From a virus, in IMG/VR virus record IMGVR_UViG_3300037189_012624, positions 1 to 24,829 of that record: 24,829 nt of DNA, one strand, 5' to 3'. The position numbers and the translations under genes are program-made. The notes below the pieces were generated by a model. It was given only the letters and a program-made list of their open reading frames with translations. It was not told the origin of the DNA and made no database searches. Every line of letters starts with the position of its first letter. Positions within the stretch are counted from its first letter, which is position 1. This document shows, one piece after another, positions 9,190 to 24,235 of this stretch.

Positions 9190-9365
9190 GTACCCCGGTC
9201 ACTCACCAGGGGCAAAATTTCGCCCAAAGCAGATTTCGCGGATAGCGTATAGTGAGAACTGTCGGATTCTAGTCCGATGGGTAGAGACAACTTCAAACTG
9301 CGAGCGCATCGCAAAGTTATGGGTTGGGCGGTCAGCAGTCTCTCCCCAGACTGGCCGCTCAACTC
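9190..9365 (+). ncRNA. Structured leader upstream of terminase-like gene
   Basis: The 200 bp before the ATG at 9386 carry no gene but four hairpins in series: CCCCGGT/ACCAGGGG (about 9193-9211), TCGGA/TCCGA around TTCTAG (about 9269-9284), TGCGA/TCGCA (about 9299-9313), and a long stem GTTGGGCGGTC...GGCCGCTCAAC (9323-9363), whose upper part AGTCT/AGACT closes on CTCCCC with a 3-nt bulge. There is no T-tract, so it is not an ordinary terminator. It may be a 5' leader or a small RNA. No match to a known RNA family or tRNA cloverleaf was seen. Confidence 0.4.
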
Positions 9366-9385
9366 TTAAACAGAGGACACGATTT

Positions 9386-10306
9386 ATGTCAGACGAACTT
9401 GAGAGAGACCCCTTCTCAAAACCTGAGTTGGAATTACCAGATGTCCAAATCGACACCCCTATCAACCTCAGACCTGACCTCAGCCTCCACGGAATCGAAG
9501 AGACAGACCGTGGCGTATGTCTAGACACATTTGAAAACAGGCAAGCATTGCGTCGAGCGAAGTTCAACTGGCTTCCTGTCTACGCCCTTAATGGCGTTCC
9601 TACTGGTTTGATTCAAGCACTGTCTCCTGAGATGCAATCTCAACAGCGTCTACTTTCTCTTGACGAAAAGGTAGCCATCTTGGTCGAACCTGATGATAAA
9701 AATTCTGATTATATAACTGGCTATAACCTAATAGCCGAGTCAGCAGCAGACTACATCGCTCCGCCTTGGGTACTGGGCGCGACACGCGCTTGGGCTAAGC
9801 AACAGAACTCGGGCGATTTAGCGCATGGAAAAAAGGAACTCCCTCTTCCTAAACGCTGTAAAGCAATCAAAGATGATGGCATCAGATGTCAACTCTGGTC
9901 TGGCGGGCGTGGAGCAGATGACGGTCTATGTCGCGTTCACTTGGGCTCACTAAGGAATAAACCTACCGACTCAGTGGAGCGTGCTCGTTCCCGTTTGACA
10001 CAAGCCACCCCCTCCGCCGTTGATGTTCTCGAACAACTTATGGACAACGCAGAGTCCGAACCCGTCAAACTCAAAGCGGCCACCGAAATCCTAGACCGTG
10101 CTGGTATTCGTGCTGGTATCGACATCAATACCGATGTCACTCTCGATGTCCGCCCTGCTGCCTCAATTATTGCTGAGCGTCTACAACGGTTAGCCACAAA
10201 CGCAATTGAAGCGCAGCGGCGTTTCCAAGCGACCCAAGAGCCAGAGACAGTTATAGTAGAAGAACAAGTCGAAGACGCAGAGGTAGTAGAAGATGACGCT
10301 AAGTGA
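9386..10306 (+). CDS. Putative terminase small subunit / DNA-binding protein
   Basis: 306 aa, ATG 9386 with AGAGGA 9 nt upstream. The N-terminal half is unassigned. Residues about 155-195 hold a short Cys/His motif (KRCKAIKDDGIRCQLW, GLCRVHLGS), seen in actinophage DNA-binding proteins. Residues about 205-250 (SAVDVLEQLMDNAESEPVKLKAATEILDRAGI) match the helical ending common in small terminase subunits of such phages, followed by an acidic tail (VIVEEQVEDAEVVEDDAK). A small terminase would recognise the packaging site and load the large subunit, which is not in the window. Other DNA-binding roles remain possible. Its end overlaps the next gene by 14 bp. Confidence 0.6.
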   Translation: MSDELERDPFSKPELELPDVQIDTPINLRPDLSLHGIEETDRGVCLDTFENRQALRRAKFNWLPVYALNGVPTGLIQALSPEMQSQQRLLSLDEKVAILVEPDDKNSDYITGYNLIAESAADYIAPPWVLGATRAWAKQQNSGDLAHGKKELPLPKRCKAIKDDGIRCQLWSGGRGADDGLCRVHLGSLRNKPTDSVERARSRLTQATPSAVDVLEQLMDNAESEPVKLKAATEILDRAGIRAGIDINTDVTLDVRPAASIIAERLQRLATNAIEAQRRFQATQEPETVIVEEQVEDAEVVEDDAK

Positions 10307-10502
10307 AGTAATAGACCAGATGGTCGACCTCACTAACGGACTTCACGAAGATGTCAAACAAGCATCTAATCGCGTCGAGCACATCAGACTGACGGCACGG
10401 GCAAACGAAGCGGTCAACATTCTTCACGACCTTATGCTTCTCCAGGATGACCGAAACCAGGATACGACAGATGACGAAACCAAAACAGCCGACGGCGAGT
10501 GA
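10293..10502 (+). CDS. Small helical protein overlapping terminase-like gene
   Basis: 69 aa, ATG 10293 overlapping the stop of the previous gene, with GAGG upstream in the acidic tail codons. The sequence is helical and polar (LSEVIDQMVDLTNGLHEDVKQA, ANEAVNILHDLMLLQDDRN), ending in an acidic Thr/Asp-rich tail. There is no recognised domain. The next gene starts inside it, so three consecutive genes here overlap and are probably translated in a coupled way. Its last codons include ACGGCGAGT, a near copy of the dispersed ACGGYNNGC word. Confidence 0.6.
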   Translation: MTLSEVIDQMVDLTNGLHEDVKQASNRVEHIRLTARANEAVNILHDLMLLQDDRNQDTTDDETKTADGE

Positions 10503-11247
10503 ACTCCGCGAGCGCTTCATAAATAAAGCATTAGAGTACACGGGATACGAATCACCCAACGGCATGGAAAATATCTTTGGCCAGCGTCGGGGTCTAAACG
10601 GCAAGCCTTGGAACGGTATCTTTATTGATGTCGTCGCTGGAGAAGCGGGTATCCGTTTACCCGTAGCACACACGGTGTCGACGGTAGCCTTGGGGTTCTA
10701 CCTGGGTAGGGGTTTTTTCCATGTAAGACCACGGCGAGGAGATATAGTCTTCCTTCAAACCTCAACGGCAAGCGAGTTCGGCTCGCCACATATAGGTATA
10801 GTAACGGATACCTCACGGCACGCCACTGACGGTATTATACAAACGGTAGAGGGTATGACGGCAAGCCAAAATCAACGGCAAGCGAAAACCCCAACGGGTG
10901 TCTATGTGCGTACCCGTCATCAGTCTGAGGTTATTGGGTATGGTCGCCCAAAATATGTAACGGCAAGCCAATTAGTAGGAAACCTAGACGCCCCAACGGT
11001 GAGCACTGCACAAGTGCGTAAAGGTATGAAGCATAAGAGCATCATTCTGGTACAACTTGCGTTGACGCAAGTGACTGGGATTACTCGTTTCCAAAGAGGG
11101 CACTTTGATACAAAGACCATACTTGCGTACTCAAAGTTCCAAAGAGACATTGGATATGTTGGCATCTCTGCATCTGGTGATGCTGACTTCAATTCATTGA
11201 AACTGTTGGGCGAACTTACTGGGTTCTTCAACGCAAAACAGACATAG
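10471..11247 (+). CDS. Endolysin-like protein: CHAP-type domain plus peptidoglycan-binding tail
   Basis: 258 aa from ATG 10471 (ATG 10447 also possible). Residues about 10-160 follow the plan of CHAP/NlpC-type hydrolases: GKPWNGIFIDVVAGEAGI, then RPRRGDIVFLQTS, SPHIGIVTD (H107) and IQTVEG. At the place of the catalytic Cys in the usual PWC motif this protein has Asn48. Residues about 181-258 resemble a peptidoglycan-binding helical domain (VRKGMKHKSIILVQLAL, GHFDTKTILAYSKFQRDIGY). It could be a non-canonical or inactive cell-wall protein, or a virion-associated one. The gene holds seven exact ACGGYNNGC words, read as TAS or TVS codons, far denser than its neighbours. Confidence 0.75.
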   Translation: MTKPKQPTASELRERFINKALEYTGYESPNGMENIFGQRRGLNGKPWNGIFIDVVAGEAGIRLPVAHTVSTVALGFYLGRGFFHVRPRRGDIVFLQTSTASEFGSPHIGIVTDTSRHATDGIIQTVEGMTASQNQRQAKTPTGVYVRTRHQSEVIGYGRPKYVTASQLVGNLDAPTVSTAQVRKGMKHKSIILVQLALTQVTGITRFQRGHFDTKTILAYSKFQRDIGYVGISASGDADFNSLKLLGELTGFFNAKQT

Positions 11248-11670
11248 CACGAGGCAGCGACATTTATTTTTGACGCATAATTCCTTATGTTATTCCGGGT
11301 TCCCAGGGTCCCAGGGAAGTTCGGGAAATCGGGAAATGTAACAAATTCATAACGGCTTATGCTTTTAACTTGACAAACGGCAAAAACGACTTTAGACTAT
11401 GTCCCATAGTCTAAAGCGAAAAACTGATACATTTCCCCCGGATTCCCAGTAAACATAAGGAATCGACGGCACGGCTAGAATCCTCAAAATTTTTATAATA
11501 AACTCTTATGCTTTAGTGCTGCGAACGGAACCCGCACGAACGCGCGGAAACGGCGAGCGCTTTCCTCAACGGCGAGCGGGTTCCCTCTTTTTCCATGTGC
11601 ATGGAAAAACGGCTAGCCTGGTGAACGGCTTGCGTTATAGACTAAGAACGGCAAGCGATGACGGCGTGCC
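11248..11670 (+). other. Structured, word-rich intergenic region
   Basis: 423 bp without a convincing gene. It holds nested inverted repeats: ATTCCTTATGTT (11280-11291) with AACATAAGGAAT (11452-11463); GGGAAATGTA (11331-11340) with TACATTTCCC (11428-11437); and centrally CTTTAGACTATG (11390-11401) with CATAGTCTAAAG (11405-11416). TTGACA (11370-11375) with TAGACT (11393-11398) at 17 bp forms a strong promoter whose -10 lies inside the central palindrome. From 11550 to 11669 there are six ACGGYNNGC words and a perfect TTTTTCCATG/CATGGAAAAA inverted repeat (11588-11609). Candidates: replication origin, regulatory RNA or operator. Confidence 0.6.
11370..11416 (+). promoter_or_regulatory. Promoter with -10 inside a 12-bp-arm palindrome
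   Basis: TTGACA at 11370-11375, a 17-bp spacer and TAGACT at 11393-11398. The -10 box lies in the left arm of a perfect palindrome (12-bp arms, 3-bp loop, 11390-11416). A protein bound there would block transcription, or the transcript would start inside the hairpin. No gene with a ribosome site follows closely. Confidence 0.6.
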
Positions 11671-11940
11671 ATGTCGAAGAGAAAGATAACGGATATGGAT
11701 TTTGAGGACTGGTTGAAGATTGGGTATGACAACGGGTGGGTTGGTGCCCCCGTATGTGACACACATGACGGCGTGCCAATGACGGCAAGCGAAGAGAAAG
11801 AATTTGAAGAGGGAGACCCGTGTATCAACATACTGCGTCTGTACTCAACGGTAGAGGAAAAGATGCAGGTAGAAGAGAACCACTCTCCATCTGTTTGGCG
11901 TGCAAGTAACCGTGGACTTGGTATCTCAGAACTGGAATAA
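11671..11940 (+). CDS. Conserved phage hypothetical protein (DFEDWLKIG...WVGAPVCDTHDG)
   Basis: 89 aa of a type I recognise as common in actinophages: MDFEDWLKIGYDNGWVGAPV, CDTHDGVPMTASEEKEFEEGDPC, INILRLYST. Two Cys and one His (CDTH, DPC) may bind metal. No function is known. There is no Shine-Dalgarno; the ATG instead follows directly after two ACGGYNNGC words (11648-11656 and 11661-11669), the second one base before the start codon. Two more copies lie inside the gene at 11768 and 11782, encoding part of GVPMTAS. How translation starts here is unclear. Confidence 0.75.
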   Translation: MSKRKITDMDFEDWLKIGYDNGWVGAPVCDTHDGVPMTASEEKEFEEGDPCINILRLYSTVEEKMQVEENHSPSVWRASNRGLGISELE

Positions 11941-11982
11941 ATTCCCAAAATCACACATCTCGTGATGTTTTATGATAAACCT

Positions 11983-12192
11983 ATGAGACACATTGAGATG
12001 CACCTGATAGAAAATAGCAAGGATGTTCAGTCAGCAAATACTGTTGGACTGGAAGTTGACCCTAACGAAACTTGCGAAGAATGTTTCGAGGCTGTTGGCG
12101 AGGTAAATGGAACCTTTGTTCCTTTCGTCTTGCTCCTCGATGACGAGGCAGAGTGGGTTGTTTGCGCTGAGTGCGCGAGTCCTGTGCTCTAA
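11983..12192 (+). CDS. Small CxxC/CxxC zinc-ribbon-like protein, possibly leaderless
   Basis: 69 aa from ATG 11983 (GTG 11962 and ATG 11965 are alternatives). The sequence has two CxxC pairs (ETCEECFEAVGEVNG and EWVVCAECASPVL) framing a hydrophobic beta segment (TFVPFVLLLDD), the layout of a small zinc ribbon. TATGAT at 11971-11976 lies 6 nt before ATG 11983, so a transcript would begin at or next to the start codon. There is no Shine-Dalgarno and no clear -35. A long terminator follows. Confidence 0.65.
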   Translation: MRHIEMHLIENSKDVQSANTVGLEVDPNETCEECFEAVGEVNGTFVPFVLLLDDEAEWVVCAECASPVL

Positions 12193-12208
12193 CTCCTGAG
12201 GTCCCTCC

Positions 12209-12272
12209 ACCTGGGCTGCTCTTTTTTCCATGCAGAGATGTTGCATGGAAAAAGCGCAGACCCGGGTTTTTT
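12209..12272 (+). terminator. Long intrinsic terminator with CCATGCA/TGCATGG stem
   Basis: ACCTGGGCTGCTC followed by TTTTTTCCATGCA pairs almost completely with TGCATGGAAAAAG followed by CGCAGACCCGGGT (arms 12209-12234 and 12242-12267, loop GAGATGT), ending in a run of six T (12267-12272). It closes the unit ending at 12192. The upper stem is the TTTTTCCATGC word met elsewhere in the window. Confidence 0.8.
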
Positions 12273-12337
12273 GCTTCTGACGCGATTCTCTTTTTGCTTA
12301 TGTTCTTCCGGGATGGGCTTCTCGAAGATTTCGCTGT

Positions 12338-12378
12338 GAGCGAACAAACTTGACATTGGGAATAATTTACGAAACAAT
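12338..12378 (+). promoter_or_regulatory. Promoter for the 12418 gene
   Basis: TTGACA (12350-12355) begins the shared block TTGACATTGGGAATAA; AACAAT (12373-12378) sits 17 bp downstream as a weak -10. GAGCGAACAA (12338-12347) directly upstream recurs before the TTGACATT promoters at 17139 and 19824. Confidence 0.6.
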
Positions 12379-12417
12379 CTAGTTATCAGTAGTATGACAA
12401 ATGACAAAGGAGACGCA

Positions 12418-12651
12418 ATGTCCACACCAAAGTATCCACACATCAAGGTGACTACCCACCATCGAGCAACTGACCCTATGGCAGTTCTTATGGCAGTGTC
12501 GCACGCAATGAAAGACGCTGGGGTTCCGACCTCTGACTGCATCGAGTATCTCGACAATGTCATGGGTATCATTCAGAATAGTGAGACCAATGCAAAGCGA
12601 GCAGTCGCTGTAGCAAAGGAATCACTCAAGTGGGTAGCACTCACTGATTAA
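12418..12651 (+). CDS. Hypothetical protein
   Basis: 77 aa from ATG 12418, chosen over ATG 12394 because AAAGGAGA lies at the right distance. It is helical (AVLMAVSHAMKDAGVPTSD, NAKRAVAVAKESLKWVAL) after a His-rich N-terminus (YPHIKVTTHHRATDP), and has a single Cys. No known family. It is a single-gene unit with its own promoter at 12350 and is followed by another promoter at 12720. Its stop is followed by a weak CACTGA/TCAGTG hairpin with no T-tract. Confidence 0.75.
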   Translation: MSTPKYPHIKVTTHHRATDPMAVLMAVSHAMKDAGVPTSDCIEYLDNVMGIIQNSETNAKRAVAVAKESLKWVALTD

Positions 12652-12719
12652 ATGTCAGTGGGTGTCTATACACTCAAAAGAGTCAAGCAACACGCCAAAA
12701 AAGATTTTTGGAAATGTAC

Positions 12720-12797
12720 TTGACAAGCGATTGAATCTATGGTTCAATTTCTAATAACAACAAAAAACAGTGTTCTAACTAAGGAGACCAAAACACT
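12720..12797 (+). promoter_or_regulatory. Promoter and hairpin leader of the 12798 gene
   Basis: TTGACA (12720-12725), 17 bp, TTCAAT (12743-12748); ATTGAA/TTCAAT arms flank the spacer. AGTGTT (12769-12774) pairs with AACACT (12792-12797), placing the AAGGAG site in the loop and the base of the stem directly against the ATG at 12798. Confidence 0.6.
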
Positions 12798-13301
12798 ATG
12801 AACGCAAAGACAGAAAAGGACTGCGCTGGCAAGGCGCTGTACCTAGAGTTCCGCAAGGAGAACTACACCTATCAGGTGATAGTAACTCCACCTGCCATCG
12901 ATGTCGAGGGCAACTATGTTCCTGCTAGCGTGATGGAACGACGCATTTCGTCGTGGCATCCTCGTCGCAACTGGAACTTCAGTTCGATTCCGACTAACGC
13001 AGAGTTCGCTATTCAGCGCACTGCTGTTGGTGGATTCGAGCAACTAGATGTAGAGACTGCTCAACACAAAGGTGCGCAGCACATCAATCGTCTGCTTGCT
13101 CGCACACTAGACTCTCTCTTCCACAAGGGTTGGACTTTGTTCCAGCAAGCAGTGGCAGTAGAGACCACTTACAAAGACTTGGAACTAATCAAGTCTGGTA
13201 AGACTTCCAATGACCTTGTTCGACGCATCGAGCGTTCACGCAAGTCATTTGGATTCCCAGATGCTTTGTTCGCAGAGCCAGTCGTAGCACCAGTAGCGTA
13301 A
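12798..13301 (+). CDS. Hypothetical protein upstream of MoxR-like ATPase
   Basis: 167 aa, ATG 12798 with AAGGAGA upstream. The first half is beta-rich (ALYLEFRKENYTYQVIVTPPA, SSWHPRRNWNFSSIP), the second helical (HINRLLARTLDSLFHKGWTLF, DLVRRIERSRKSFGF). No catalytic motif and no match to a family I know. It lies 21 bp before the AAA+ gene with no visible terminator between, so it may share its transcript and work with it. It ends in an Ala/Val/Pro-rich tail (AEPVVAPVA). Confidence 0.75.
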   Translation: MNAKTEKDCAGKALYLEFRKENYTYQVIVTPPAIDVEGNYVPASVMERRISSWHPRRNWNFSSIPTNAEFAIQRTAVGGFEQLDVETAQHKGAQHINRLLARTLDSLFHKGWTLFQQAVAVETTYKDLELIKSGKTSNDLVRRIERSRKSFGFPDALFAEPVVAPVA

Positions 13302-13322
13302 TTAGTTAGGAGACCATACATT

Positions 13323-14348
13323 ATGACTACACCAATCGCAGGAACCCCACAAGCGTGGGTCGCTGACCAAGTTCGTTTCAACGCGAACCTACCTACTCTG
13401 CTCAACGCAGTTGTAGGACAGACTCTCAACTCAGTTGTTGCGTCTGACCTTAACCTTGTATTTGACGACAAAACCGGGAAAGCAGTTATTCGCAATCGCG
13501 ATGGCGCTGCCCCAGCGAGGAACAAGATGAAAGCAGTCGATGCTCTTGAGGGCGAGGCATTTTACTTACGACCAAATGGTCACAAGTATTTCACTCGTGC
13601 TTGGGGTCAGCACACTGATGTTGAGGTTGCTCGCAACCAGCGCATCAGCGAGCGCGGAAAATCCATCTTGCTCTATGGCGCACCGGGCACTGGCAAGACT
13701 GCTATGTTCGAGGGCGCTTTTGGCGACGAACTAATCACTGTTCTCGGAACTGGCGACACTGAAGTTGGCGACCTTGTTGGTGGCTATGTTCAGACAATCG
13801 CTGGTGGATTCGAGTGGGTCGATGGTCCACTTGTCCAAGCAGCAGAGCAGGGTAAAGTCTTGCTCATTGACGAGATTGGTCTGATTGACCCTAAGGTCTT
13901 GTCTGTTGTTTATGGCTTGATGGATGGTCGTAAGGAACTCAAAGTAACTGCTAACCCTGAGCGAGCAATCGTAAAGGCGAAAGATGGTTTCTTTGTAGTT
14001 GCTGCGACTAACCCTAACGCGCCGGGAGTTGTTCTCTCTGAGGCACTTCTATCTCGTTTCGGAATCCAAGCAGAAATGACAACTGACTGGACACTCGCAA
14101 CCAAGTTGGGAGTTCCATCACTCGCTGTTACTTGCGCTCAGAACCTTGCAAAAAAGCAGAAGAGCGATGAAGTTTCTTGGGCGCCGCAGATGCGTGAACT
14201 CTTGGACTTCAGAGACATTGCTGAAGACCTTGGAACTGAGTGGGCTATCAGCAACTTGATTGCTCAAGCACCTTTCGAGGACAGGGCAATCGTGGCAGAT
14301 GTCTTCACTCGCGTGTTCGCGATGGAAGTAAAGCCAGCCAAAATCTAG
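13323..14348 (+). CDS. MoxR-family AAA+ ATPase
   Basis: 341 aa, ATG 13323 with AGGAG 10 nt upstream. The N-terminal about 110 residues are unassigned. The AAA+ core has Walker A GAPGTGKT (119-126), Walker B VLLIDEIG (179-186), sensor-1 AATNP (227-231) and arginine-finger region LLSRF (242-246), with GDTEVGDLVGGY between them. This is the MoxR/CbbQ type, which couples ATP hydrolysis to remodelling of a partner, usually encoded beside a VWA-domain protein. The next gene is exactly such a VWA protein. The target in phages is unknown; a role in remodelling virion or host complexes is inference. A GGGAGTGGG/CCCACTCCC hairpin follows. Confidence 0.9.
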   Translation: MTTPIAGTPQAWVADQVRFNANLPTLLNAVVGQTLNSVVASDLNLVFDDKTGKAVIRNRDGAAPARNKMKAVDALEGEAFYLRPNGHKYFTRAWGQHTDVEVARNQRISERGKSILLYGAPGTGKTAMFEGAFGDELITVLGTGDTEVGDLVGGYVQTIAGGFEWVDGPLVQAAEQGKVLLIDEIGLIDPKVLSVVYGLMDGRKELKVTANPERAIVKAKDGFFVVAATNPNAPGVVLSEALLSRFGIQAEMTTDWTLATKLGVPSLAVTCAQNLAKKQKSDEVSWAPQMRELLDFRDIAEDLGTEWAISNLIAQAPFEDRAIVADVFTRVFAMEVKPAKI

Positions 14349-14383
14349 GTCTCCCCTAATCGAGATTTTGGTTGTAACAAGGG

Positions 14384-14413
14384 GGGAGTGGGTTGACGAA
14401 AGTCCCCACTCCC
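14384..14413 (+). terminator. GC-rich hairpin after AAA+ gene
   Basis: GGGAGTGGG (14384-14392) pairs perfectly with CCCACTCCC (14405-14413). A T-tract is missing and an A-run follows, so termination may be partial or factor-dependent, allowing some read-through to the VWA gene. Confidence 0.5.
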
Positions 14414-14438
14414 TCTCAAAAAAACTTGGGGAATAAAC

Positions 14439-14467
14439 TTGACAAAACTTTAGTTATACCTAATAAT
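14439..14467 (+). promoter_or_regulatory. Promoter of VWA gene
   Basis: TTGACA (14439-14444), 17-bp spacer, AATAAT (14462-14467). Upstream is GGGAATAAAC, the sequence also found immediately before the -35 boxes at 24236 and, as AATAAAC, at 17514 and 19931. Confidence 0.75.
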
Positions 14468-14497
14468 AGATGTAACGACAAAAGAAAGGCGACTCAA

Positions 14498-16378
14498 ATG
14501 AGCCACCACACACTTAACTCTCGACCAGTAGGTCGCGTAGATTACGCTTGGCTAGGCGTGAACGCTAGCGTTGGCAAACTTGTCAACCAGTGGTCACTGC
14601 GCCAAGACCTAGTAGTCGCGCTCGCCGAAGTCACCACCATTGGCGCACCTGCTTGTTTCAATCCTGCGAGCGCAGAGATTGAAGTATCAATCCCTAAGGC
14701 TTTTGGTGCTGGCATCACTCCAGACCAAGTTGGCGAAATGACTCTTCGTAAGAATCAACTCAAGCACGCTGTTGGTGCTGGTGCGATTTACCACGAGGCA
14801 CTTCACGCTCGCGTATCGCGCTGGTCATTAGAGCAAGCACACAAAGACCTAAGCGCTCGCGAACTCCGATTCATCAACGCGATGGAAGAGTCTCGCATCG
14901 AATACTGGGGCTGTGTCTTCCTACCAAAGAATCGTTCACTGCTACGCGCTTGTGCGATTGAAATTGTTATGGATGAACTTGACGAGCAAGCCAAGAATGT
15001 TTCCAAGGTTGACGCTGCTGCGTTCCTTGCTCTACTAACTTTGGCTCGCGTTGACGCTGGCGTTCTTGACAAGCGCGACATCGTTGACTCAGTTCAGGAA
15101 ATCATCTCTGAAGTTTTGAGCGACGAAGTTGTTGCTAAGTTGCGCGAAGTGTGGAAAGACTTCCAGACTCACGACGACCACGCTAACGCTCTTCCACTCT
15201 ACGACCTAACTCGCGAGTTCCTAAAGATTCTCGACGAGCGCAAGGAAGAGACTGGCGAAGACGAGGGTCAAGAGCCAGAGGGCGGTTGTGAAAAGCCGGG
15301 TGGCGAGGGTGGAGAGCCGGGAACTGGAACTGGTAAGGGTCAACCTACACCAGAGCAGATTGAAGAGTTCAAGGACTTCATCGAAAAAGTCAAAGAGGCA
15401 GTCAAGGAAAACCAAGAGGCAGTCAATGTTTCTAACCAGACTGAACTCGACGACGAAATCGAAACTGAAGAGCGCAAGGAAGAAGTCGAGGCTCACAACG
15501 AGGCTAAGCAAATGCGCGACGAGCGCAAGGACTTGGCTGACAAGGTGTTCAACCAAGACGATGCTATTGGTTCTCATGTTTCTGGTGAGAAGACTCGCTC
15601 TCGTCTGATTGACACTCGTCTTCCAACTGGCGAAGAACTTGCTAGCGCGAACAAGATTGCTAACGCTCTGCGTAAAGCAAAATACCGCGAGCGCTCTCAG
15701 ACTCGTATCGCCAGCGTTGTGCCTCCGGGTCGTCTGCGCTCACGCGCTTTCATTCAGGGTCAAGCACAAAAGGCTCGTGGCATCAACGCACCAGTCGAGG
15801 CTTGGCGCACAACCAAGCGCAAGACCACTGAAGACCCAACTCTAAATGTTGGAATCATCGTGGACATCTCTGGTTCGATGAAGTCAGCAATGACTCCAAT
15901 GGCTATCACTGCTTGGGTTATGAGCGAGGCTGTTCGCCGAGTTCAGGGCAAGGCTGCGATGGTCTACTGTGGTCAAGATGTATTCGCCACTCTAAAGCCG
16001 GGAAAGCGTCTGAGCAAGGTTTCGACCTACTCCGCGTCTGACTCAACTGAAGAGTTTGACAAGGCGTTCAAGGCTCTTGATGGTGCGATGAACCTGACTC
16101 ACGCTGACGGTGCGAAGTTGCTTGTGGTCGTCTCTGACGGACACTACCGCTCTGACCAGAAAGACCACGCTCGCAAGTTGCTACGCGACGCTGACAAGAA
16201 CGGTGTCGCAATCTTGTGGCTAACTTTCGATGGCAAGGTAAGCGAGCCATCGGACTTGCTCAAGGGAACTGCGGGCAAGGTTGTTGACCTGAAGTCAACG
16301 GAGTCGCCAACCACCGCGTCTGCCATCATCGGAGACGCAGCGGCTAAGGCTCTATCGGCTATCGGCTCGCGGGTCTAA
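14498..16378 (+). CDS. VWA-domain protein with HEXXH motif, partner of MoxR ATPase
   Basis: 626 aa from ATG 14498, with AGAAAGG upstream; the longer frame from 14393 crosses the promoter and is rejected. Residues 99-103 are HEALH followed by HARVSRW and, about 30 residues on, AMEESRIE, a zincin-like arrangement common in phage and bacterial VWA partners. Residues about 250-400 are acidic and low in complexity (GEDEGQEPEGG, EGGEPGTGTGKGQP), probably flexible. The VWA domain starts near 449 with the MIDAS motif DISGSM (D456, S458, S460) and later VVVSDGHY (D about 546). CobT-like and MoxR-associated proteins share this plan. Peptidase activity is unproven; the HEXXH may be structural. Confidence 0.85.
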   Translation: MSHHTLNSRPVGRVDYAWLGVNASVGKLVNQWSLRQDLVVALAEVTTIGAPACFNPASAEIEVSIPKAFGAGITPDQVGEMTLRKNQLKHAVGAGAIYHEALHARVSRWSLEQAHKDLSARELRFINAMEESRIEYWGCVFLPKNRSLLRACAIEIVMDELDEQAKNVSKVDAAAFLALLTLARVDAGVLDKRDIVDSVQEIISEVLSDEVVAKLREVWKDFQTHDDHANALPLYDLTREFLKILDERKEETGEDEGQEPEGGCEKPGGEGGEPGTGTGKGQPTPEQIEEFKDFIEKVKEAVKENQEAVNVSNQTELDDEIETEERKEEVEAHNEAKQMRDERKDLADKVFNQDDAIGSHVSGEKTRSRLIDTRLPTGEELASANKIANALRKAKYRERSQTRIASVVPPGRLRSRAFIQGQAQKARGINAPVEAWRTTKRKTTEDPTLNVGIIVDISGSMKSAMTPMAITAWVMSEAVRRVQGKAAMVYCGQDVFATLKPGKRLSKVSTYSASDSTEEFDKAFKALDGAMNLTHADGAKLLVVVSDGHYRSDQKDHARKLLRDADKNGVAILWLTFDGKVSEPSDLLKGTAGKVVDLKSTESPTTASAIIGDAAAKALSAIGSRV

Positions 16379-16518
16379 CGGCTCGCGTAGGGGGTGGGCT
16401 TGCGTAAACGGCAAGCCTACCTCTATAATAGAAACACGGTAAGCCTAACGGCTCGCCTAAGAGACAAAGAGACGGCGTGCGTAAACGGCACGCCATAGAG
16501 AGATAAAGGAGATTGACG
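16378..16518 (+). repeat. Cluster of six ACGGYNNGC words
   Basis: Exact copies start at 16378, 16408, 16436, 16448, 16472 and 16485, all on the plus strand, packed in 116 bp between the VWA gene and the next gene; the first overlaps the VWA stop codon. A TATAAT at 16424-16429 with TTGCGT 18 bp upstream could be a promoter inside the cluster. Spacing between copies is irregular (12-30 bp start to start), unlike a CRISPR array. Confidence 0.75.
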
Positions 16519-16923
16519 GTGGGTCAGTATCACATTTTAGTAAACCTAGATAAGCAGGAGTGGGTAGACCCTCACGGCTTAGGTCTGGGGTCAAAGCAAT
16601 ACGAACACGCTGGGTTCGAGGCATCGCTAGCAGACGCTATGTATGTTCTAGTTATGTCGAGTCCTGCTGGTGGTGGTGGAGACTTTCCTCACACTGACAT
16701 TTCAGGTCGTTGGGTTGGAGACAGAGTTGTGATTGTGGGAGACTACACTCACAAAGACGCTATCCCCGGAATCACTGGGGCTGATGCGATTTACTCGTTG
16801 GCTCAAGCCCAGTATGGAAACATAACTCCTGAGGTTCGCACTGCTTTCGAGAAGATTTTCAACATTGCCTATGGCACAAAAGAAGTTGGGACTCACACTT
16901 TTTGGAGTCGAGTTCTAGCGTAA
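16519..16923 (+). CDS. Conserved hypothetical protein (MGQYHILVNLDK family)
   Basis: 134 aa. GTG 16519 is chosen because AGGAG (16507-16511) is 7 nt upstream; TTG 16513 would be only 1 nt away. The start MGQYHILVNLDKQEWVDPHGLG and the block GRWVGDRVVIVGDYTHKD match a family I recall from Streptomyces and actinophages with no known function. A Gly-rich loop (SSPAGGGGDFPH) precedes the conserved core. The gene has its own terminator, and the ACGG word cluster lies in front of it. Confidence 0.8.
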   Translation: MGQYHILVNLDKQEWVDPHGLGLGSKQYEHAGFEASLADAMYVLVMSSPAGGGGDFPHTDISGRWVGDRVVIVGDYTHKDAIPGITGADAIYSLAQAQYGNITPEVRTAFEKIFNIAYGTKEVGTHTFWSRVLA

Positions 16924-16940
16924 GAACCAAAGAAGATAAG

Positions 16941-16969
16941 CCCCTCAGCAATGAGGGGTTTATTTTTTT
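16941..16969 (+). terminator. Intrinsic terminator
   Basis: CCCCTCA (16941-16947) pairs with TGAGGGG (16952-16958) over a 4-nt loop, followed by TTTATTTTTTT. It ends the unit of the gene at 16519-16923. Confidence 0.9.
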
Positions 16970-17120
16970 CCACGCGAGGCGCATGGAAAAAGATAGAACC
17001 TGTGAAAATAGGGTTGCCTATTTTTCCATGCAGGATGCTGACGCATCTCGCGCTTCGCGCTCAACGCTTATGCGATAACTTTTGCTGATGGGATACTCCT
17101 GTTCTCTCAGGGCGAACAAG
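16963..17120 (+). other. Intergenic region with TTTTTCCATGC words
   Basis: No gene seen. A TTTTTTTCCACGC/GCATGGAAAAA imperfect inverted repeat (16963-16991) overlaps the preceding T-tract. A second word is GGGTTGCC followed by TATTTTTCCATGC (ending 17031). GCGC-TTC-GCGC forms a short hairpin near 17050, and GGCGAACAAG (17111-17120) precedes the next promoter. Confidence 0.6.
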
Positions 17121-17138
17121 AAAGTTCTATAAAAACTA

Positions 17139-17166
17139 TTGACATTAGGAATAAATGTCATACGCT
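17139..17166 (+). promoter_or_regulatory. Promoter of WGR gene with inverted repeat
   Basis: TTGACA (17139-17144), 16 bp, TACGCT (17161-17166). The -35 is part of an inverted repeat TGACATT...AATGTCA (17140-17161) that spans the spacer, a plausible operator. Confidence 0.6.
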
Positions 17167-17206
17167 TGTAGTTATAGTTAGTAATGACGAAATGAAGGAG
17201 ATACAG

Positions 17207-17494
17207 ATGTCATTTAAAACAGAGGGCAACAAGACCACAGTTCTAATGTTCAATGCCTCACAAGGCGAGCGTGGAGAAGAGGGTCGTCGCAAGGGATACA
17301 GAATAGATGTATTCCAAGGCACAATGAACGACCTACCAGTTTGGTATGTCGCAGTTCGTTGGGGTCGCGCTGAGCAGTCCCAGAGTTGGTGGCAGGTTCA
17401 GGTCAAGGACTTTCAGACTGAACAGCAAGCAATGATTTTTGCGTGGGAGAAATACTACGCAAAGACTGACAAGGGCTACGAAGTCTTCGAGTAA
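17207..17494 (+). CDS. Stand-alone WGR-domain-like protein
   Basis: 95 aa from ATG 17207, with AAGGAG at correct distance; ATG 17192 is too early. The sequence VWYVAVRWGRAEQSQSWWQV, followed by KDFQTEQQAMIFAWEKYYAK and GYEVFE, has the WGR signature: a WGR tripeptide in a beta strand, a K-F element, a conserved A-x-x-F helix and a terminal K-G-Y. WGR domains occur in PARPs and bacterial MolR-like regulators and bind nucleic acid. Here the domain stands alone. Binding to phage or damaged DNA is inference. Confidence 0.75.
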   Translation: MSFKTEGNKTTVLMFNASQGERGEEGRRKGYRIDVFQGTMNDLPVWYVAVRWGRAEQSQSWWQVQVKDFQTEQQAMIFAWEKYYAKTDKGYEVFE

Positions 17495-17513
17495 GACACG
17501 CCAAAAAATAAAC

Positions 17514-17581
17514 TTGACATTCGGGAATAAATACTGAATAATCATAGTTGTAGTTATTATAGAAGTTCTCTTGAAGGGAGA
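17514..17581 (+). promoter_or_regulatory. Promoter and SD hairpin of 17586 gene
   Basis: TTGACA (17514-17519), 17 bp, AATAAT (17537-17542). In the leader, TCTCTT-GAA-GGGAGA (17567-17581) can fold so that the Shine-Dalgarno is paired. The same element occurs at 18287, 24275 and 24526. Confidence 0.7.
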
Positions 17582-17585
17582 CAAA

Positions 17586-17840
17586 GTGAAAAATGTAATC
17601 AAGGTTATGGTTCAAGATGTTCCAGTAACAATCACAAAGCGTGAGCGCGACTACGAACTGTCTTGGACTGATGGCGTTGCTAACGACTGGCAGGAGTATT
17701 ACCCACTGCTATCGCTGGCTCTCGCTCGATTCGCCACTCTTGTTGCGTGCGCTGAGGCAGACTGGAACAAGGGATTTGTAACCAGCAACAACGACTTCGT
17801 TCTAAACGCAAGTCTCTTCCTAGAAAGCGAGGCACGCTAA
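17586..17840 (+). CDS. Hypothetical protein
   Basis: 84 aa from GTG 17586, with AGGGAG about 4 nt upstream. The N-terminal half is basic and beta-like (NVIKVMVQDVPVTITKRERDY), the middle is Trp-rich (ELSWTDGVANDWQEYYP) and the second half helical (LLSLALARFATLVACAEADW). No recognised family. The stop overlaps the next start as TAATG, coupling it to the zinc-ribbon protein that follows. Confidence 0.75.
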   Translation: MKNVIKVMVQDVPVTITKRERDYELSWTDGVANDWQEYYPLLSLALARFATLVACAEADWNKGFVTSNNDFVLNASLFLESEAR

Positions 17841-18217
17841 TGAGCGACCTACGAACCCACCCTTGTCCAACTTGTGATGGGCAGATTCCGAACAACGAAA
17901 CTCCGGGAGCCTACTCAGGTGCTATCTCACGCAAGGACAACAAGACTGAAATCTGTTCTGCTTGTGGAACGAAAGAGGCGCTCGCGGATTTCTTTGGAGT
18001 TAAGGAACATCAACACACTTGGGGAGTCGATAACCTATCTGACGACCACGAAGTAATCTGCTTGGTCTGCCAAGTAGTAAAGGTGGAAGAAGTTATCTGC
18101 CCTCAGTGCGACGAGCCAACTACAAAAGAGGCTCTCGCTCAGTGGGAGATGTGCCACGACTGCGACAATCAAATGTGCGCCGAGTGTGGACAGATTGACT
18201 GCGACCACGAGTTCTAA
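17840..18217 (+). CDS. Multi-zinc-ribbon protein
   Basis: 125 aa, ATG 17840 overlapping the preceding TAA. It contains five CxxC pairs: CPTC near residue 9, ICSACG near 39, CLVC near 74, CPQC near 87, and CHDC...CAEC near 104-115, with a terminal CDHEF. The first segment (IPNNETPGAYSGAISRKDN then TEICSACGTKEA) is a pattern I know from many phage and bacterial small zinc proteins. The rest looks like successive zinc ribbons. Likely a nucleic-acid or protein-binding adaptor; no enzyme motif is present. Confidence 0.8.
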   Translation: MSDLRTHPCPTCDGQIPNNETPGAYSGAISRKDNKTEICSACGTKEALADFFGVKEHQHTWGVDNLSDDHEVICLVCQVVKVEEVICPQCDEPTTKEALAQWEMCHDCDNQMCAECGQIDCDHEF

Positions 18218-18236
18218 AAACTTAGGCGTGTTGGGC

Positions 18237-18301
18237 TTGACAAATGTCAGCCCAGCGCCCTATACTAAATAAGTAATAATAAAAGTTCTCTTGAAAGGAG
18301 A
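18237..18301 (+). promoter_or_regulatory. Promoter with TGACA-AA-TGTCA operator and SD hairpin
   Basis: TTGACA (18237-18242), 18 bp, TATACT (18261-18266). The -35 forms the left arm of TGACA-AA-TGTCA (18238-18249). The leader holds TCTCTT-GAA-AGGAGA (18287-18301), 8 nt before ATG 18310. Confidence 0.8.
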
Positions 18302-18309
18302 CTCGCCTT

Positions 18310-18717
18310 ATGGCAAACTACTACGAATCAGCACGCACCAACTACTTCTTGGTCAAGGACATTGACGCGTTCAAGAAAGAACTTGAAATGGTCAAGTCTC
18401 TTGAAGTGTGTGTCGAACACAAGAACCTGAAAGATTATGTCTGCTTACTCGCTGACAGCGAGAGTGGATTTGCTTTCGACTACTACGACGACAGCCTAGA
18501 AGATTACATTGAAATCGACTGGGAAGGCATTTTCAAAAAGCACCTACAAGACGACTCAGTGGCAATCATCATTGGCTCTGGTTCTGAGAAACTCCGCTAC
18601 ATTCGTGGATACGCTTTTGCGTTCAACAGCAAGGGCGAGACCAAGTTCCTCAGTCTTGACGACATCTACGAAATGGCTAAGCCTCTTGGCTCAGACATTC
18701 AGAAAGCAGAATACTAA
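18310..18717 (+). CDS. Hypothetical protein
   Basis: 135 aa, ATG 18310 downstream of a strong promoter and a structured ribosome site. It is acidic and mixed alpha/beta (DIDAFKKELEMVKSLEVCVE, DYYDDSLEDYIEIDWEGIF, VAIIIGSGSEKLRYIRGYAF). It lacks membrane spans and metal motifs. No family recognised. It is followed at 2 bp by a short CxxC gene, with which it probably forms a two-gene unit. Confidence 0.75.
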   Translation: MANYYESARTNYFLVKDIDAFKKELEMVKSLEVCVEHKNLKDYVCLLADSESGFAFDYYDDSLEDYIEIDWEGIFKKHLQDDSVAIIIGSGSEKLRYIRGYAFAFNSKGETKFLSLDDIYEMAKPLGSDIQKAEY

Positions 18718-18718
18718 G

Positions 18719-18949
18719 ATGGCTGACTTTTACTTCGCCAGTGATGGCTCTTATGGAAGTGCCGAGGGTATGGAAGTCCACGACACTGACAACTGGACTG
18801 ACGCAATGTGGCAGGAGATTGAAGAGGCGACAGACAATCGTCGCCCATCACTCTCCGACCACTTCGCCGAGAACAAGCACGAACTAGATGGCGACAAGCA
18901 GTGCGTCGAGTGTGGTCTTGGTGGCTCTGACTTGCCACCTAAGGACTAA
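18719..18949 (+). CDS. Small acidic CxxC protein
   Basis: 76 aa from ATG 18719, two bases after the upstream stop; the longer open frame from 18509 lies antiphase within the upstream gene and is not real. The protein starts MADFYFASDGSYGSAEGMEV, is acidic, and ends HELDGDKQCVECGLGGSD, giving one CxxC with nearby His. No known function. There is no clear Shine-Dalgarno, so translational coupling to the upstream gene is likely. Confidence 0.7.
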   Translation: MADFYFASDGSYGSAEGMEVHDTDNWTDAMWQEIEEATDNRRPSLSDHFAENKHELDGDKQCVECGLGGSDLPPKD

Positions 18950-18957
18950 ACTCACTC

Positions 18958-18999
18958 TTGACAGCAAGAGCCACCTACCCTACACTTGTAGGTAGGTGG
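18958..18999 (+). promoter_or_regulatory. Promoter with -10 inside a long palindrome
   Basis: TTGACA (18958-18963), 17 bp, TACACT (18981-18986). The -10 lies in CCACCTACCCTACA (18971-18984), which pairs with TGTAGGTAGGTGG (18987-18999) with one bulge. CTCTTG/CAAGAG also flanks the -35. The hairpin may instead act as a weak terminator of the previous unit, but it lacks a T-tract. Confidence 0.6.
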
Positions 19000-19072
19000 T
19001 TACTTGCTACCAAAACACCACTTTTCAAAGTGATGTAAAATGATTTATAGAAAAAGAAAGAAGGTTTCCGAA

Positions 19073-19321
19073 ATGGAAAAGTTCACAATCGTCGCACAAG
19101 TGCGATTCGACATTGAAGATGTCGACCTAGCAAGAGCAAATCGTCAGGCAATGGCATCTATTGCTCTACTAACCAAGGGCGTCAACCCAATGGAAGACGA
19201 ATACCCCAACCTAAATGCGCCTTATTCAATCGCTGGGGATTACTCAATCCTTGACGAAGATGGCAAAGTCTTGAAAAAGAGTAGCCACGCAGAAGAAGAA
19301 GACGCACCAAAAGCAGACTAA
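19073..19321 (+). CDS. Hypothetical acidic protein
   Basis: 82 aa from ATG 19073, with AAGAAGG about 7 nt upstream; ATG 19040 has no site. The protein begins MEKFTIVAQVRFDIEDVDLA, with a helix (ARANRQAMASIALLTKG) and an acidic C-terminus (SHAEEEDAPKAD). It has no Cys and no span. It sits before the ClgR-like regulator at 30 bp with no terminator between them, so the two may be co-transcribed from the promoter at 18958. Family unknown. Confidence 0.7.
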   Translation: MEKFTIVAQVRFDIEDVDLARANRQAMASIALLTKGVNPMEDEYPNLNAPYSIAGDYSILDEDGKVLKKSSHAEEEDAPKAD

Positions 19322-19351
19322 ACCCTGCCCTAACGAAAGACAAAAAGACAA

Positions 19352-19645
19352 ATGAATCTAGCAATCGCTCTTGGCGACTCGATTCGCGTTATGCGAATGG
19401 AAAAAAGTATGACCCTGCGTGACCTAAGCGCTAAGTCACACATCTCGCTGGGCTACCTTTCCGAAGTAGAACGAGGCACGAAAGAAGTGTCCTCCGTTGT
19501 TTTGGATTGTGTTGCTCAGGGGCTTGATGTTCCTCTTTATGTAATCATTGAAGAGGCTTCACGCAAGATGCGCGACTCCGAAGAGTTCAACTACATCACA
19601 CGAAGTGTTGAACTTGACCACATGGAAAAAGTTCTAGTCTGGTAA
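19352..19645 (+). CDS. ClgR-like XRE-family transcription regulator
   Basis: 97 aa, ATG 19352. Residues about 6-62 form a Cro/C1-type helix-turn-helix: LGDSIRVMRMEKSMTLRDLS, then HISLGYLSEVERGTKEVSSV and DCVAQGLDVPL. SLGYLSEVERGxKE is the recognition-helix signature of actinobacterial ClgR and related regulators, which control Clp proteases and stress genes. A phage copy could redirect host proteolysis or regulate phage promoters such as the TGACA/TGTCA family. The C-terminal tail (ASRKMRDSEEFNYITRSVEL) is short. The family call is strong; the target is unknown. Confidence 0.9.
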   Translation: MNLAIALGDSIRVMRMEKSMTLRDLSAKSHISLGYLSEVERGTKEVSSVVLDCVAQGLDVPLYVIIEEASRKMRDSEEFNYITRSVELDHMEKVLVW

Positions 19646-19661
19646 AGCATAGGAGAAAATG

Positions 19662-19799
19662 ATGAATACATTACTGATGTTGTCCAACGAATCCACTGTT
19701 GAAATAAACCTGCTCGCTGAGAGCAAGGAACTATTCGACCTAATCAAAAAGAACACACCTTACGCCGAACTTCTGGCTTGGGTGAACGAGAACTTCTAG
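19662..19799 (+). CDS. 45-aa hypothetical protein
   Basis: ATG 19662 has AGGAG 6 nt upstream (ATG 19659 is only 3 nt away). It reads MNTLLMLSNESTVEINLLAE, continues with a helix (SKELFDLIKKNTPYAELLAW) and ends at TAG 19797. It follows the regulator by 16 bp and precedes two promoters. The good ribosome site and composition like its neighbours support it; no family is known. Confidence 0.6.
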   Translation: MNTLLMLSNESTVEINLLAESKELFDLIKKNTPYAELLAWVNENF

Positions 19800-19808
19800 T
19801 TCTCTCAC

Positions 19809-19960
19809 AGCGAACAAGAAACTTTGACATTTCGGAATAAAATGTCTTTGTATCGTGTTATAGTTTATGTATCAAGCAAATGCGAGATACAGGGTCTCAA
19901 AAGGCGTTATCAAGTTGTTATCTAATAAACTTGACAAATGTCAGAGGGATACCCTAAGGT
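19809..19960 (+). promoter_or_regulatory. Tandem promoters of the 20021 gene
   Basis: First: AGCGAACAAG (19809-19818), then TTGACA (19824-19829) in TTGACATTTCGGAATAAA with arms GACATTT/AAATGTC. Second: TTGACA (19931-19936), 18 bp, TAAGGT (19955-19960), with TGACA-AA-TGTCA over the -35 and AATAAAC upstream. A 31-codon frame from about 19869 lies between them but has no ribosome site. Confidence 0.6.
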
Positions 19961-20020
19961 AGTAAGTATCAGGTCAAAAGATTTGATAAATGACACAATG
20001 ACTAGAAAGAGGTGAGGTCA

Positions 20021-20344
20021 ATGGCAAAAGCGCTGACCCCAACTATCAAAGGCAAGACAGTCGAACTTGGTTTCGACGCTGAGGCACGCGAGGCTCTACG
20101 AGTCTTCAAGGAGTCTCTACAAATCAAGAAAGACGCTGACAAGGCTAAGGCTGAGGCAGAGGCTGTTCTTCGTGCAAAACTAGGCGACGCCGAGTTCGCA
20201 ACTATCAGTGGCTCAATCAACTTCAAGATTGCTAAGGTCTCGAAGATGAACCCTGACCTTGCTAAGTTGCTCGCAGAGTTTCCTGCGGTCTACGAGGCGA
20301 TTATGGTCGACGGCTCTTACGACTTCATCAAGACCGTCAACTAG
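20021..20344 (+). CDS. Small coiled-coil protein, resembles C-terminus of YqaJ-type recombination proteins
   Basis: 107 aa from ATG 20021, with AGAGGTGAGG upstream. The first half is helical and charged (DAEAREALRVFKESLQIKKD, ADKAKAEAEAVLRAKLGDAE); the second (ATISGSINFKIAKVSKMNPD, LAKLLAEFPAVYEAIMVDGS) follows the order seen at the end of phage YqaJ-like exonucleases (Gly-turn, strand, Asp-Leu-x-x-Leu, F/HPxxYE). The nuclease core is absent, so this would be a stand-alone accessory domain. The resemblance is from memory and weak. It has two promoters and is followed by heavily structured non-coding DNA. Confidence 0.65.
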   Translation: MAKALTPTIKGKTVELGFDAEAREALRVFKESLQIKKDADKAKAEAEAVLRAKLGDAEFATISGSINFKIAKVSKMNPDLAKLLAEFPAVYEAIMVDGSYDFIKTVN

Positions 20345-20352
20345 CACACAGA

Positions 20353-20550
20353 CTTGACGGGTGCGGTGTCCCCAAACACACCGCCTCGTCAACCTGCTGG
20401 TTATGAGTGATAACAAGTAACCGCTACGGTAGCCCGTAGCGACCAGCACGGCGAGTCGTATCCGATTCAATCCCCCCATTGCCTAACGGATACGGCTCGC
20501 CTCCATAAGCACCCCCCAACTTACCTAATGTGGTAGGTCGGGGGGTTCTT
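20353..20550 (+). ncRNA. Candidate structured RNA with three-way junction
   Basis: Directly after the 20021 gene the sequence folds into successive elements. TTGACG...CGTCAA encloses GCGGTGT/ACACCGC (20353-20391). TGCTGGT (20394-20400) pairs with ACCAGCA (20442-20448), partly overlapping an inner GTTAT/ATAAC hairpin and enclosing CGCTACGG/CCGTAGCG (20422-20441), like a three-way junction. GGCGAGTCGTATCCG (20450-20464) pairs with CGGATACGGCTCGCC (20487-20501), one G-U pair. CCCCCC...GGGGGG with inner CTTACC/GGTAGG (about 20512-20546) ends as a terminator with a poor T-tract. No tRNA T-loop is present and the junction is too short for a tRNA. Confidence 0.5.
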
Positions 20551-21131
20551 ACTTTAACGGCTAGCCCTTGACGGACAAACGGCAAGCGCAAACGGCAAGC
20601 GTGTAATAGATAAATCTTTATGCCCTAACGGATAAGCCCCGAAGAGATTGACGGGTCGTGTTTATAGGAGAGGTGGGTAAATGCCAACGGTAAGCATCTG
20701 AGGAGAAATGGAAGAGAGGAAAAGCGTAAGGAGATGCAGAGGGAAAAATAGGGAGGTAGGTCTTTCCATGCAGATGCGAAGAGGAGAAAGACGAGATGCA
20801 GGAAGCGAAGGCGCATGGGGGAAAAGCATAAGAGATAAAGGAAAAGATGCAGAGGAACAAATCACATTGCGAGGAAGAAAGTTATTCGCGTCTGAGGCAA
20901 AGTTTTTCGCAAGATGCGTGCATGGAAAAACATGGGACTTGACTTTTTTGGATTTCTGTTTTTTGGATTTCTTTGATTTCTTTTTTCGAGTCGAACTTTC
21001 TTATGTTTTATTTTTGTCATCTGAGTCATCAAATCTTGTTCGCTCAGAGCAAACAAATAAATCTAATGTATTAGGAAGAAAATGTCTGTCCACTAGGTTA
21101 TTATTTATGTAGGCAATGGGAGGTGATTATT
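20551..21131. other. Non-coding region of dispersed words
   Basis: About 580 bp without a convincing gene. It has four ACGGYNNGC words (20557, 20579, 20592, 20687), a purine-rich stretch (20697-20900) with repeated GATGCAG, GAGGA and GCATAAG, CTTTCCATGC (20762-20771), GCATGGAAAAA (20920-20930), and a tandem 14-bp repeat TTTTTTGGATTTCT (20944-20957 and 20959-20972). TTCGA-G-TCGAA is near 20985, and CTTGTTCGCT (21035-21044) is the reverse of the GCGAACAAG element. The open frame at 20708 is a by-product of purine richness. Confidence 0.55.
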
Positions 21132-21278
21132 ATGAAAACAAAAGTCTGGATTCACAACAGATTTGATGGCTCTAACAAAGTCATTGAGTTTGATGATTTC
21201 TGGGTTGCTCGTCAGTGGGTTGAGAACTTCAACTCAGACTGCGACCTACCATTCCACGCTTCAATAGAGGCAGAGTGA
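21132..21278 (+). CDS. 48-aa hypothetical protein
   Basis: ATG 21132 follows GGGAGGTGA at good distance. The frame reads MKTKVWIHNRFDGSNKVIEF and ends FHASIEAE before TGA 21276. An aromatic, acidic centre (DDFWVARQWVENFNSDCD) suggests a small folded protein. No family is known. It is well separated from the preceding non-coding zone; the strong ribosome site supports it. Confidence 0.65.
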   Translation: MKTKVWIHNRFDGSNKVIEFDDFWVARQWVENFNSDCDLPFHASIEAE

Positions 21279-21336
21279 ACCTGCGACCTGAGCAAGTCCT
21301 AAAACTGCTCACACACAAAACTACATAGGAGACAAA

Positions 21337-21573
21337 GTGCCAAAAAGAAAACTAGAACTCGACAGAGAAGTTATCGACTACACATTGGAGATTCTCGCAG
21401 AGATTCTTCACGCAAGTCAGCAGATTGAAGAAATCGCAAAACAGCGTGGGAAAAAAGTTCCAAAGAAGTTCGAGCGCAAAGTCGGAAAAGTTCTGATTGC
21501 CCACATGATGTTGAGCAAAGCAAATCGAGAAGTCGAAGTTGCTGAACTTGAAGAAATGTTCAATCGAGAATAA
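21337..21573 (+). CDS. Small basic helical protein
   Basis: 78 aa from GTG 21337, with AGGAG (in ATAGGAGAC) 7 nt upstream. Almost wholly helical and charged: REVIDYTLEILAEILHASQQ, then EEIAKQRGKKVPKKFERKVG and an acidic end. The basic centre may bind nucleic acid, but no helix-turn-helix signature is clear. Followed 17 bp later by an intrinsic terminator. Function unknown. Confidence 0.7.
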   Translation: MPKRKLELDREVIDYTLEILAEILHASQQIEEIAKQRGKKVPKKFERKVGKVLIAHMMLSKANREVEVAELEEMFNRE

Positions 21574-21590
21574 AACTGAAAAAAGAAATG

Positions 21591-21619
21591 CACCTCAGGG
21601 AACTGAGGTGTATTTTTTT
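21591..21619 (+). terminator. Intrinsic terminator
   Basis: CACCTCAG (21591-21598) pairs with CTGAGGTG (21603-21610) over a 4-nt loop and is followed by TATTTTTTT. A CTTTCCATGC...GCATGGAAAAA inverted pair (21643-21684) lies just beyond. Confidence 0.9.
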
Positions 21620-21734
21620 ATCTTTTTTAGTGGGTTGCCAATCTTTCCATGCGCTTCCCTTTTAGCCTCCGGGGCATGGAAAAACACACCACCCCGGTCT
21701 GCATCTTCTTCCTCAAAAAACTTTGCTGAAATGC

Positions 21735-24233: not shown

Positions 24234-24235
24234 AC

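Follow-up and report, generated by a model that had tools for sequence, protein, structure and literature searches.

Why should the gene for a phage lysin be crowded with a four-base DNA word? The question is raised by IMG/VR fragment IMGVR_UViG_3300037189_012624, whose positions 1 to 24,829 (24,829 nt) were analyzed in full and are called the window here. This DNA is a piece of an actinobacteriophage genome of ~135 kb. Its relatives among viral contigs measure up to 135 kb, the cultured ones are Microbacterium phages with genomes of 186-195 kb, and the assembled freshwater phage DSL-LC01 is nearer to the window than the cultured phages are. The gene in question is the following.

10447..11247, + strand: lysin (endolysin-family) gene, inside ACGG island 1; matches endolysin PHROGs (best E=5.8e-18)

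The interval 10471-11247 carries 18 copies of ACGG on the + strand and three of CCGT, which is ACGG on the - strand. From base composition 2.9 copies are expected, and recoding this protein with the codon usage found in neighboring genes gives 4.0, with a maximum of nine in 2000 such draws. Thus, the excess described in the original prediction is borne out (18 versus 3-4 expected). The exact word ACGGCAAGC, said to occur seven times in this interval, is found only five times, and the pattern ACGGCNNGC has six matches. Most exact copies had also been placed in the frame that encodes Thr-Ala-Ser. This holds for three of the five + strand copies (10765, 10858 and 10960) but not for those at 10598 and 10875, which are read in the other two frames. 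Across the window there are ten copies of ACGGCAAGC, all on the + strand. The lysin peptide includes TAS four times and TVS twice, and threonine is encoded by ACG at 13 of 25 positions, versus 2 of 70 in neighboring genes.

These repeats had been taken as the mark of a DNA-level signal that shaped the protein. When 34 homologous lysins were aligned, the four TAS positions proved to be conserved in the close clade only, and outside it all four are variable (for example NVM, TGE, VNS and RKI). Retention of TAS in homologues that lack the word would have refuted the proposal; this was tested and did not occur. Alignment columns that lie under ACGG in the window are not more conserved than others (0.374 versus 0.390), and the same comparison among homologues with few words gives 0.348 versus 0.394. 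Many homologues at 30-50% identity keep 13-25 words, of which just 0-8 sites are common with the gene in the window. A high word number combined with so few common sites indicates turnover under selection on number, and this turnover, together with the variable TAS columns, supports the view that the signal acts on DNA. The core of the word is ACGG itself, and its islands also run through non-coding DNA and further genes.

The feature is therefore wider than the lysin gene to which it was first assigned, and it comprises four islands on the + strand, set apart by DNA in which the word is missing. These islands and the DNA that separates them are arranged as follows.

10186..11851, + strand: ACGG island 1, with 38 ACGG; covers the 3' part of the small terminase (TerS) gene, the lysin gene and then non-coding DNA
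11852..22507: inter-island DNA (gaps 1-2, 2-3 and 3-4), without a single + strand ACGG and almost free of CCGT
13323-14348, + strand: AAA-ATPase gene, whose body lacks ACGG and CCGT
14393-16378, + strand: VWA/CobT-like protein gene, whose body lacks ACGG and CCGT and whose 3' end is inside island 2
16107..16577, + strand: ACGG island 2, with 12 ACGG; covers the end of the VWA gene plus intergenic DNA
20310..20690, + strand: ACGG island 3, with 13 ACGG; starts at the end of ORF 20012-20344 and is mostly non-coding
22508..22996, + strand: ACGG island 4, with 16 ACGG; covers the end of ORF 22126-22596 plus non-coding DNA

Island 1 consists of two dense runs, at 10186-10999 and 11352-11851. Where near-complete relatives have clean islands, their words are restricted to one stretch of ~13 kb in genomes of 132-135 kb, and outside it ACGG occurs about 2.7 times per kb on both strands. 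The islands of relatives are located at the same genes (TerS-lysin, the end of the VWA gene, and one or two others), and these positions are kept even where the AAA-ATPase is just 58-68% identical. In the close clade the word can be written YRACGGCNNGC, whereas in distant relatives ACGG alone is common. Strictness also varies, from clean islands with an ACGG-free AAA-VWA body in some relatives to weak or absent islands in others.

Spacing between ACGG copies peaks at 13-14, 22-23, 28, 34 and 36 nt, which comes partly from shared descent, and no clean helical phasing was found. Among genes that might track with the islands, the family of ORF 20012-20344 and an XRE/ClgR-like gene do best, yet both are present in relatives without islands. 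No Rfam family was matched by any part of the window. Hairpins whose loops contain a run of C (TCCCCC, CTCCCCTA and CAATCCCCCC) recur near islands in several relatives, and examples are located at 14335-14374 and 20450-20501 of the window, at 56522 and 61627 of relative G006, and at 50118 of relative G005.

The absence of the word between islands is as strong a feature as its abundance within them. With seven relatives pooled and with protein and codon usage preserved in synonymous-codon shuffles, 0 ACGG are observed in inter-island DNA versus 105 expected, and CCGT is observed 13 times versus 91 expected (about 7-fold avoidance). The near-cognates GCGG, TCGG and CGGT show a four- to five-fold deficit, and CCGG shows none. 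This graded avoidance, present on both strands and weaker on the - strand, suggests recognition of DNA, not of mRNA alone, with a polar effect. Because the word itself defines the islands, the term inter-island is circular, and we rechecked the result on segments defined by genes. The AAA plus VWA body contains 0 ACGG versus 51.8 expected in ten strict lineages, although these were picked as clean and the count is descriptive. In the early genes of the window, Asn, Asp, Tyr and His codons that precede a GG codon end in T in 10 of 10 cases, whereas elsewhere they mostly end in C. Together, the lysin and the excluded genes provide a clear example of a DNA signal overwriting protein sequence, and the effect can be measured by codon shuffles.

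The avoidance also has a direction. Among + strand genes, ACGG has an observed/expected ratio of 0.79-0.88 in the 20 kb upstream of TerS and of 0.00-0.09 between islands. In the 15 kb past the last island it is 0.34-0.40 in the close group and, in the distant group, 0.46, 0.58 and 0.83 with distance. The CCGT word is mostly normal again past the last island. The gradient of ACGG ratios around the islands indicates that the avoidance is one-sided and extends rightwards.

That only the sense word is avoided past the last island could point to RNA, for instance if ACGG in early mRNA were bound or cut (by Rho-like loading or a T4 RegB-like RNase) and the islands were regions of 3' processing or termination. 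Non-coding island RNA does fold better than shuffled sequences (z -2.4 to -5.6). However, the avoidance between islands also extends, at about 7-fold, to CCGT, a word that does not read as ACGG in mRNA, and ACGG occupies no fixed position in predicted structures, so that we regard an RNA-level signal as improbable. RNA hairpins that present ACGG in the loop were considered as a candidate motif; they occur in a few places, but no constant place emerged over 1,034 sites.

An explanation by restriction avoidance or compositional artefact, in which ACGG would resemble the palindromes missing from the early region, is already disfavored and appears barely tenable. GTAC, ATAT and other palindromes are indeed missing from the same early zone. 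Yet dense islands cannot arise by avoidance, the exclusion of ACGG ends at the last island while the palindrome-free zones extend up to 18 kb more, and any compositional cause is countered by the control for protein and codon usage. Evasion of a Type III restriction system was rejected separately, as forward sites are hyper-enriched in islands and absent between them, not merely uniformly oriented. None of the Chi-like, uptake-sequence or Type III ideas explains the exclusion between islands.

What, then, reads the word? The position of island 1 offers a clue, as it begins inside a small-terminase ORF, which is the adjacency expected of a packaging start site. Two features precede the lysin gene.

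9317..9369, + strand: conserved inverted repeat with an 18-bp stem, the loop CAGTCTCTCCCCAGA, and CTCTCCCC at 9340; predicted site of the left physical end of the packaged genome
9386..10306, + strand: small terminase (TerS), 306 aa, with a DUF5763-like zinc finger; candidate reader of the word array

ORF 9386-10306 is the ortholog (38%) of gene 1 of phage Pumpernickel, and gene 1 of phage Cece is annotated as terminase small subunit. The TerS family profile matches a solved small terminase, 7joq (E=0.00046), and a fold search with the TerS model (pLDDT 73) gave no significant match. The DUF5763-like zinc finger is located at residues 158-186 and is matched in 26 of 32 relatives.

The four cultured relatives carry exact terminal repeats of 19,963 bp (Pumpernickel), 18,079 bp (Cece), 15,503 bp (A3Wally) and 17,079 bp (Zooman). 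These repeats start before TerS, by 61 bp in Pumpernickel and by 62 bp in the other three, and CTCTC is present within a few bases of the cut at three of the four left ends. In the family of the window, the loop motif was found upstream of TerS in 30 of the 32 relatives scanned, with a long stem in 29 of those 30, and the hairpin mostly lies 40-60 bp upstream of the small-terminase ORF. The stems of relatives measure 13-21 bp and differ in sequence while covarying, whereas the loop pattern CTCTC[CT]CC is kept and CTCTCCCC is near-invariant. CTCTCCCC is rare overall (34 occurrences in 638 kb). From these sequence patterns, the hairpin is likely a genome-end or cleavage element of the whole family. 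In the freshwater phages, no second CTCTC hairpin was found for the right border of the repeat.

The cultured phages have an array of their own at this place, made of a different word. Over TerS-lysin in the four Microbacterium phages, AACCG is observed 92 times versus 42.7 in codon shuffles, with 7 copies reversed, and this one-way array is located in the first 2.7 kb (L129, L175, L176 and L177). Measured from the true end, its density peaks at 1-2.5 kb and is gone by 3.5 kb, a profile that resembles that of ACGG measured from the hairpin in freshwater phages. The cultured relatives have this single island, at the genome end, and islands 2-4 are absent. A post hoc scan of TerS-lysin across clades found + oriented words that include ACGG, GACGG, AACCG, GCGG, ACCGG and others, and such clade-specific words suggest a phage-encoded, co-evolving reader. 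Cultured genome ends before TerS, the AACCG array and the hairpin in the family of the window together imply that the ACGG array probably marks the left packaged end. An array at the physical end of packaged DNA is observed in four cultured relatives, and for the clade of the window it is inferred from synteny and the hairpin. By the same inference, the end of this genome would be near 9330-9345 and the islands inside its terminal repeat, although no sequenced end is available for the phage of the window.

Our leading explanation, which we hold tentatively in the absence of binding or cleavage data, is that the words form an oriented recognition array, acting at the DNA level just inside the packaged left end, and that a phage-encoded protein reads it, with TerS as the likeliest candidate. 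It builds on direct observations (the array, its orientation and conservation, selection at the DNA level, the exclusion, the coincidence with the ends of cultured relatives, and the covarying hairpin). The phage would have a long direct terminal repeat, itself inferred, that contains the ACGG islands. The terminase, whose binding as the reader is likewise inferred, would assemble on the dense same-direction words beside the CTCTCCCC hairpin, cut at or near this hairpin, and then package rightwards. Extra words just downstream would mis-engage the terminase, and they would be purged from neighboring genes, most strictly in the packaging orientation. Islands 2-4, whose role is also a matter of inference, might guide the right-end cut as waypoints, or they might serve this protein in a second use. 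A packaging-start array explains the place, the polarity, the swaps of word between clades and the one-sided DNA-level avoidance. It is the best supported reading but is not proven, as the packaging function is itself inferred.

Repeated words at the small-terminase gene are already known. The pac sites of headful phages SPP1 and SF6 include direct repeats in and before this gene (PMC4737164), and the ACGG array is similar in that short repeated words at or in the small-terminase gene lie beside an end of packaged DNA, with the small terminase as proposed reader. However, the pac region of SPP1 is short, has a few boxes and shows weak specificity, whereas the ACGG array extends over 1.7 kb, both coding and non-coding, and repeats a 4-bp word up to 38 times in one orientation, with further islands, strict exclusion and an inferred long direct terminal repeat. 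In SF6/SPP1, the best-studied case for comparison, the small terminase shows little sequence specificity when it binds pac (PMC4737164), which counts against our explanation, as does the lack of a significant fold match for the TerS model. The hairpin, moreover, is also present in relatives with weak arrays. The weak point of the packaging explanation is islands 2-4, which are located 6.8-13.7 kb inside, at gene ends, where a simple packaging start needs none.

All supported early genes in seven genomes are co-oriented with the words, so packaging and transcription polarity are inseparable from sequence. Thus, we cannot set aside a polar transcription roadblock, wherein a word-bound regulator stops RNA polymerase one way so that islands insulate or terminate early operons and the lysin stays silent early. 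Oriented multi-copy sites of this kind are known from the stoperators of mycobacteriophage L5 and cluster A, which are 13-bp sites, dispersed at more than twenty per genome and bound by a known immunity repressor; the L5 sites are asymmetric and run with transcription, and they no longer repress once their orientation is reversed (PMC9283540, PMC6550527). Like them, ACGG words are numerous asymmetric sites in an actinobacteriophage, often in intergenic gaps, and are co-oriented with transcription. The location of islands 2-4 at gene ends and in non-coding gaps, the co-orientation of the supported genes of the region in seven genomes, and the sense-only avoidance that goes on in genes past the last island would all fit. 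However, no consensus of ~13 bp is common to the words, which share only ACGG, and this 4-bp core is packed in dense islands of up to 38 copies with exclusion between them. No early repressor is recognizable, and no repressor-like gene tracks with the islands, as the XRE/ClgR-like gene occurs without them too. In addition, avoidance covers only part of the early zone, and in cultured relatives the array is at the genome end only, not at the ends of early operons. A stoperator-like block accounts for the polarity and for islands 2-4. It leaves unexplained why the array is terminal and why it covers TerS and lysin, two genes that must be expressed although they lie under island 1. We consider such a block unlikely, while still a serious competitor.

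A third use of such sites would be in replication, if islands were one-strand starts for a primase, nicking or strand displacement that duplicate the long repeat. To our knowledge, how long terminal repeats are duplicated is an open question, and a strand-specific 4-nt word in spaced islands within the inferred terminal repeat, with a hairpin at the border, would suit this role. Additional sites should then be harmless, yet they are excluded, the reverse orientation is avoided too near islands, and cultured relatives have one island only. This makes the proposal distinctly unlikely, though with the transcription roadblock it is one of the two main competitors.

If the packaging explanation is extended, a four-base word that is meaningless alone would become a positional address through kilobase one-way arrays and strict exclusion, marking the start of the terminal repeat and internal waypoints, with the word swapped between clades along with its reader. 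This extension is doubtful, but if true it would represent a previously undescribed form of DNA recognition, by repeat density and polarity. In a limited literature search, we found no published account of one-way tetranucleotide arrays on a kilobase scale that are paired with strict exclusion zones. How a terminase locates the genome start, and how very long terminal repeats are marked and duplicated, are poorly resolved. Here the address (array, polarity, exclusion zone and hairpin) is visible from sequence alone, and the natural word variants make the reader and the cut site directly testable.

The early region has further peculiarities. Several 4-bp palindromes that occur often in the rest of the genome (GTAC, ATAT, ACGT, TGCA and TTAA) are missing from it, which leaves a restriction-site-free zone of 12-27 kb with sharp borders that starts just past island 1. 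Such zones cover 12500-24829 of the window, 72.9-90.1 kb of relative G001 (L104 and L105), and 24.2-50.2 kb of the reverse complement of G004; another is present in G007, where up to ten palindromes are missing. In phage T5, the first-step-transfer region is early, terminally repeated and without EcoRI sites. The zone in the window is similar in that it avoids restriction words found elsewhere in the genome, and this likeness concerns the palindrome-free zone (up to ten 4-bp palindromes missing), not the ACGG islands. AGCT and GATC have 0 copies in the whole window and in whole genomes of 100-135 kb (G001, G002, G006 and G004), some of which also lack ACGT. The window encodes two Mom-family DNA modification proteins (5704-6390 and 8014-8706), and the early region of the phage still avoids palindromes.

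Repeated -35-like boxes of the ACTTGACAAA type are located at 11369, 12719, 14438, 18236, 19930, 22066, 24235 and 24486. Several have sigma-70-like spacing, and judged by this the boxes are probable early promoters. Another word, GCATGGAAA, has 14 copies on both strands of the window, mostly in the early region (11590-11612, 12220-12256, 16955-17031, 20771, 20920, 21652-21674, 23207, 23464 and 23746). Some copies form inverted pairs with TTTTTCCATGC, and the word looks like an operator or terminator family.
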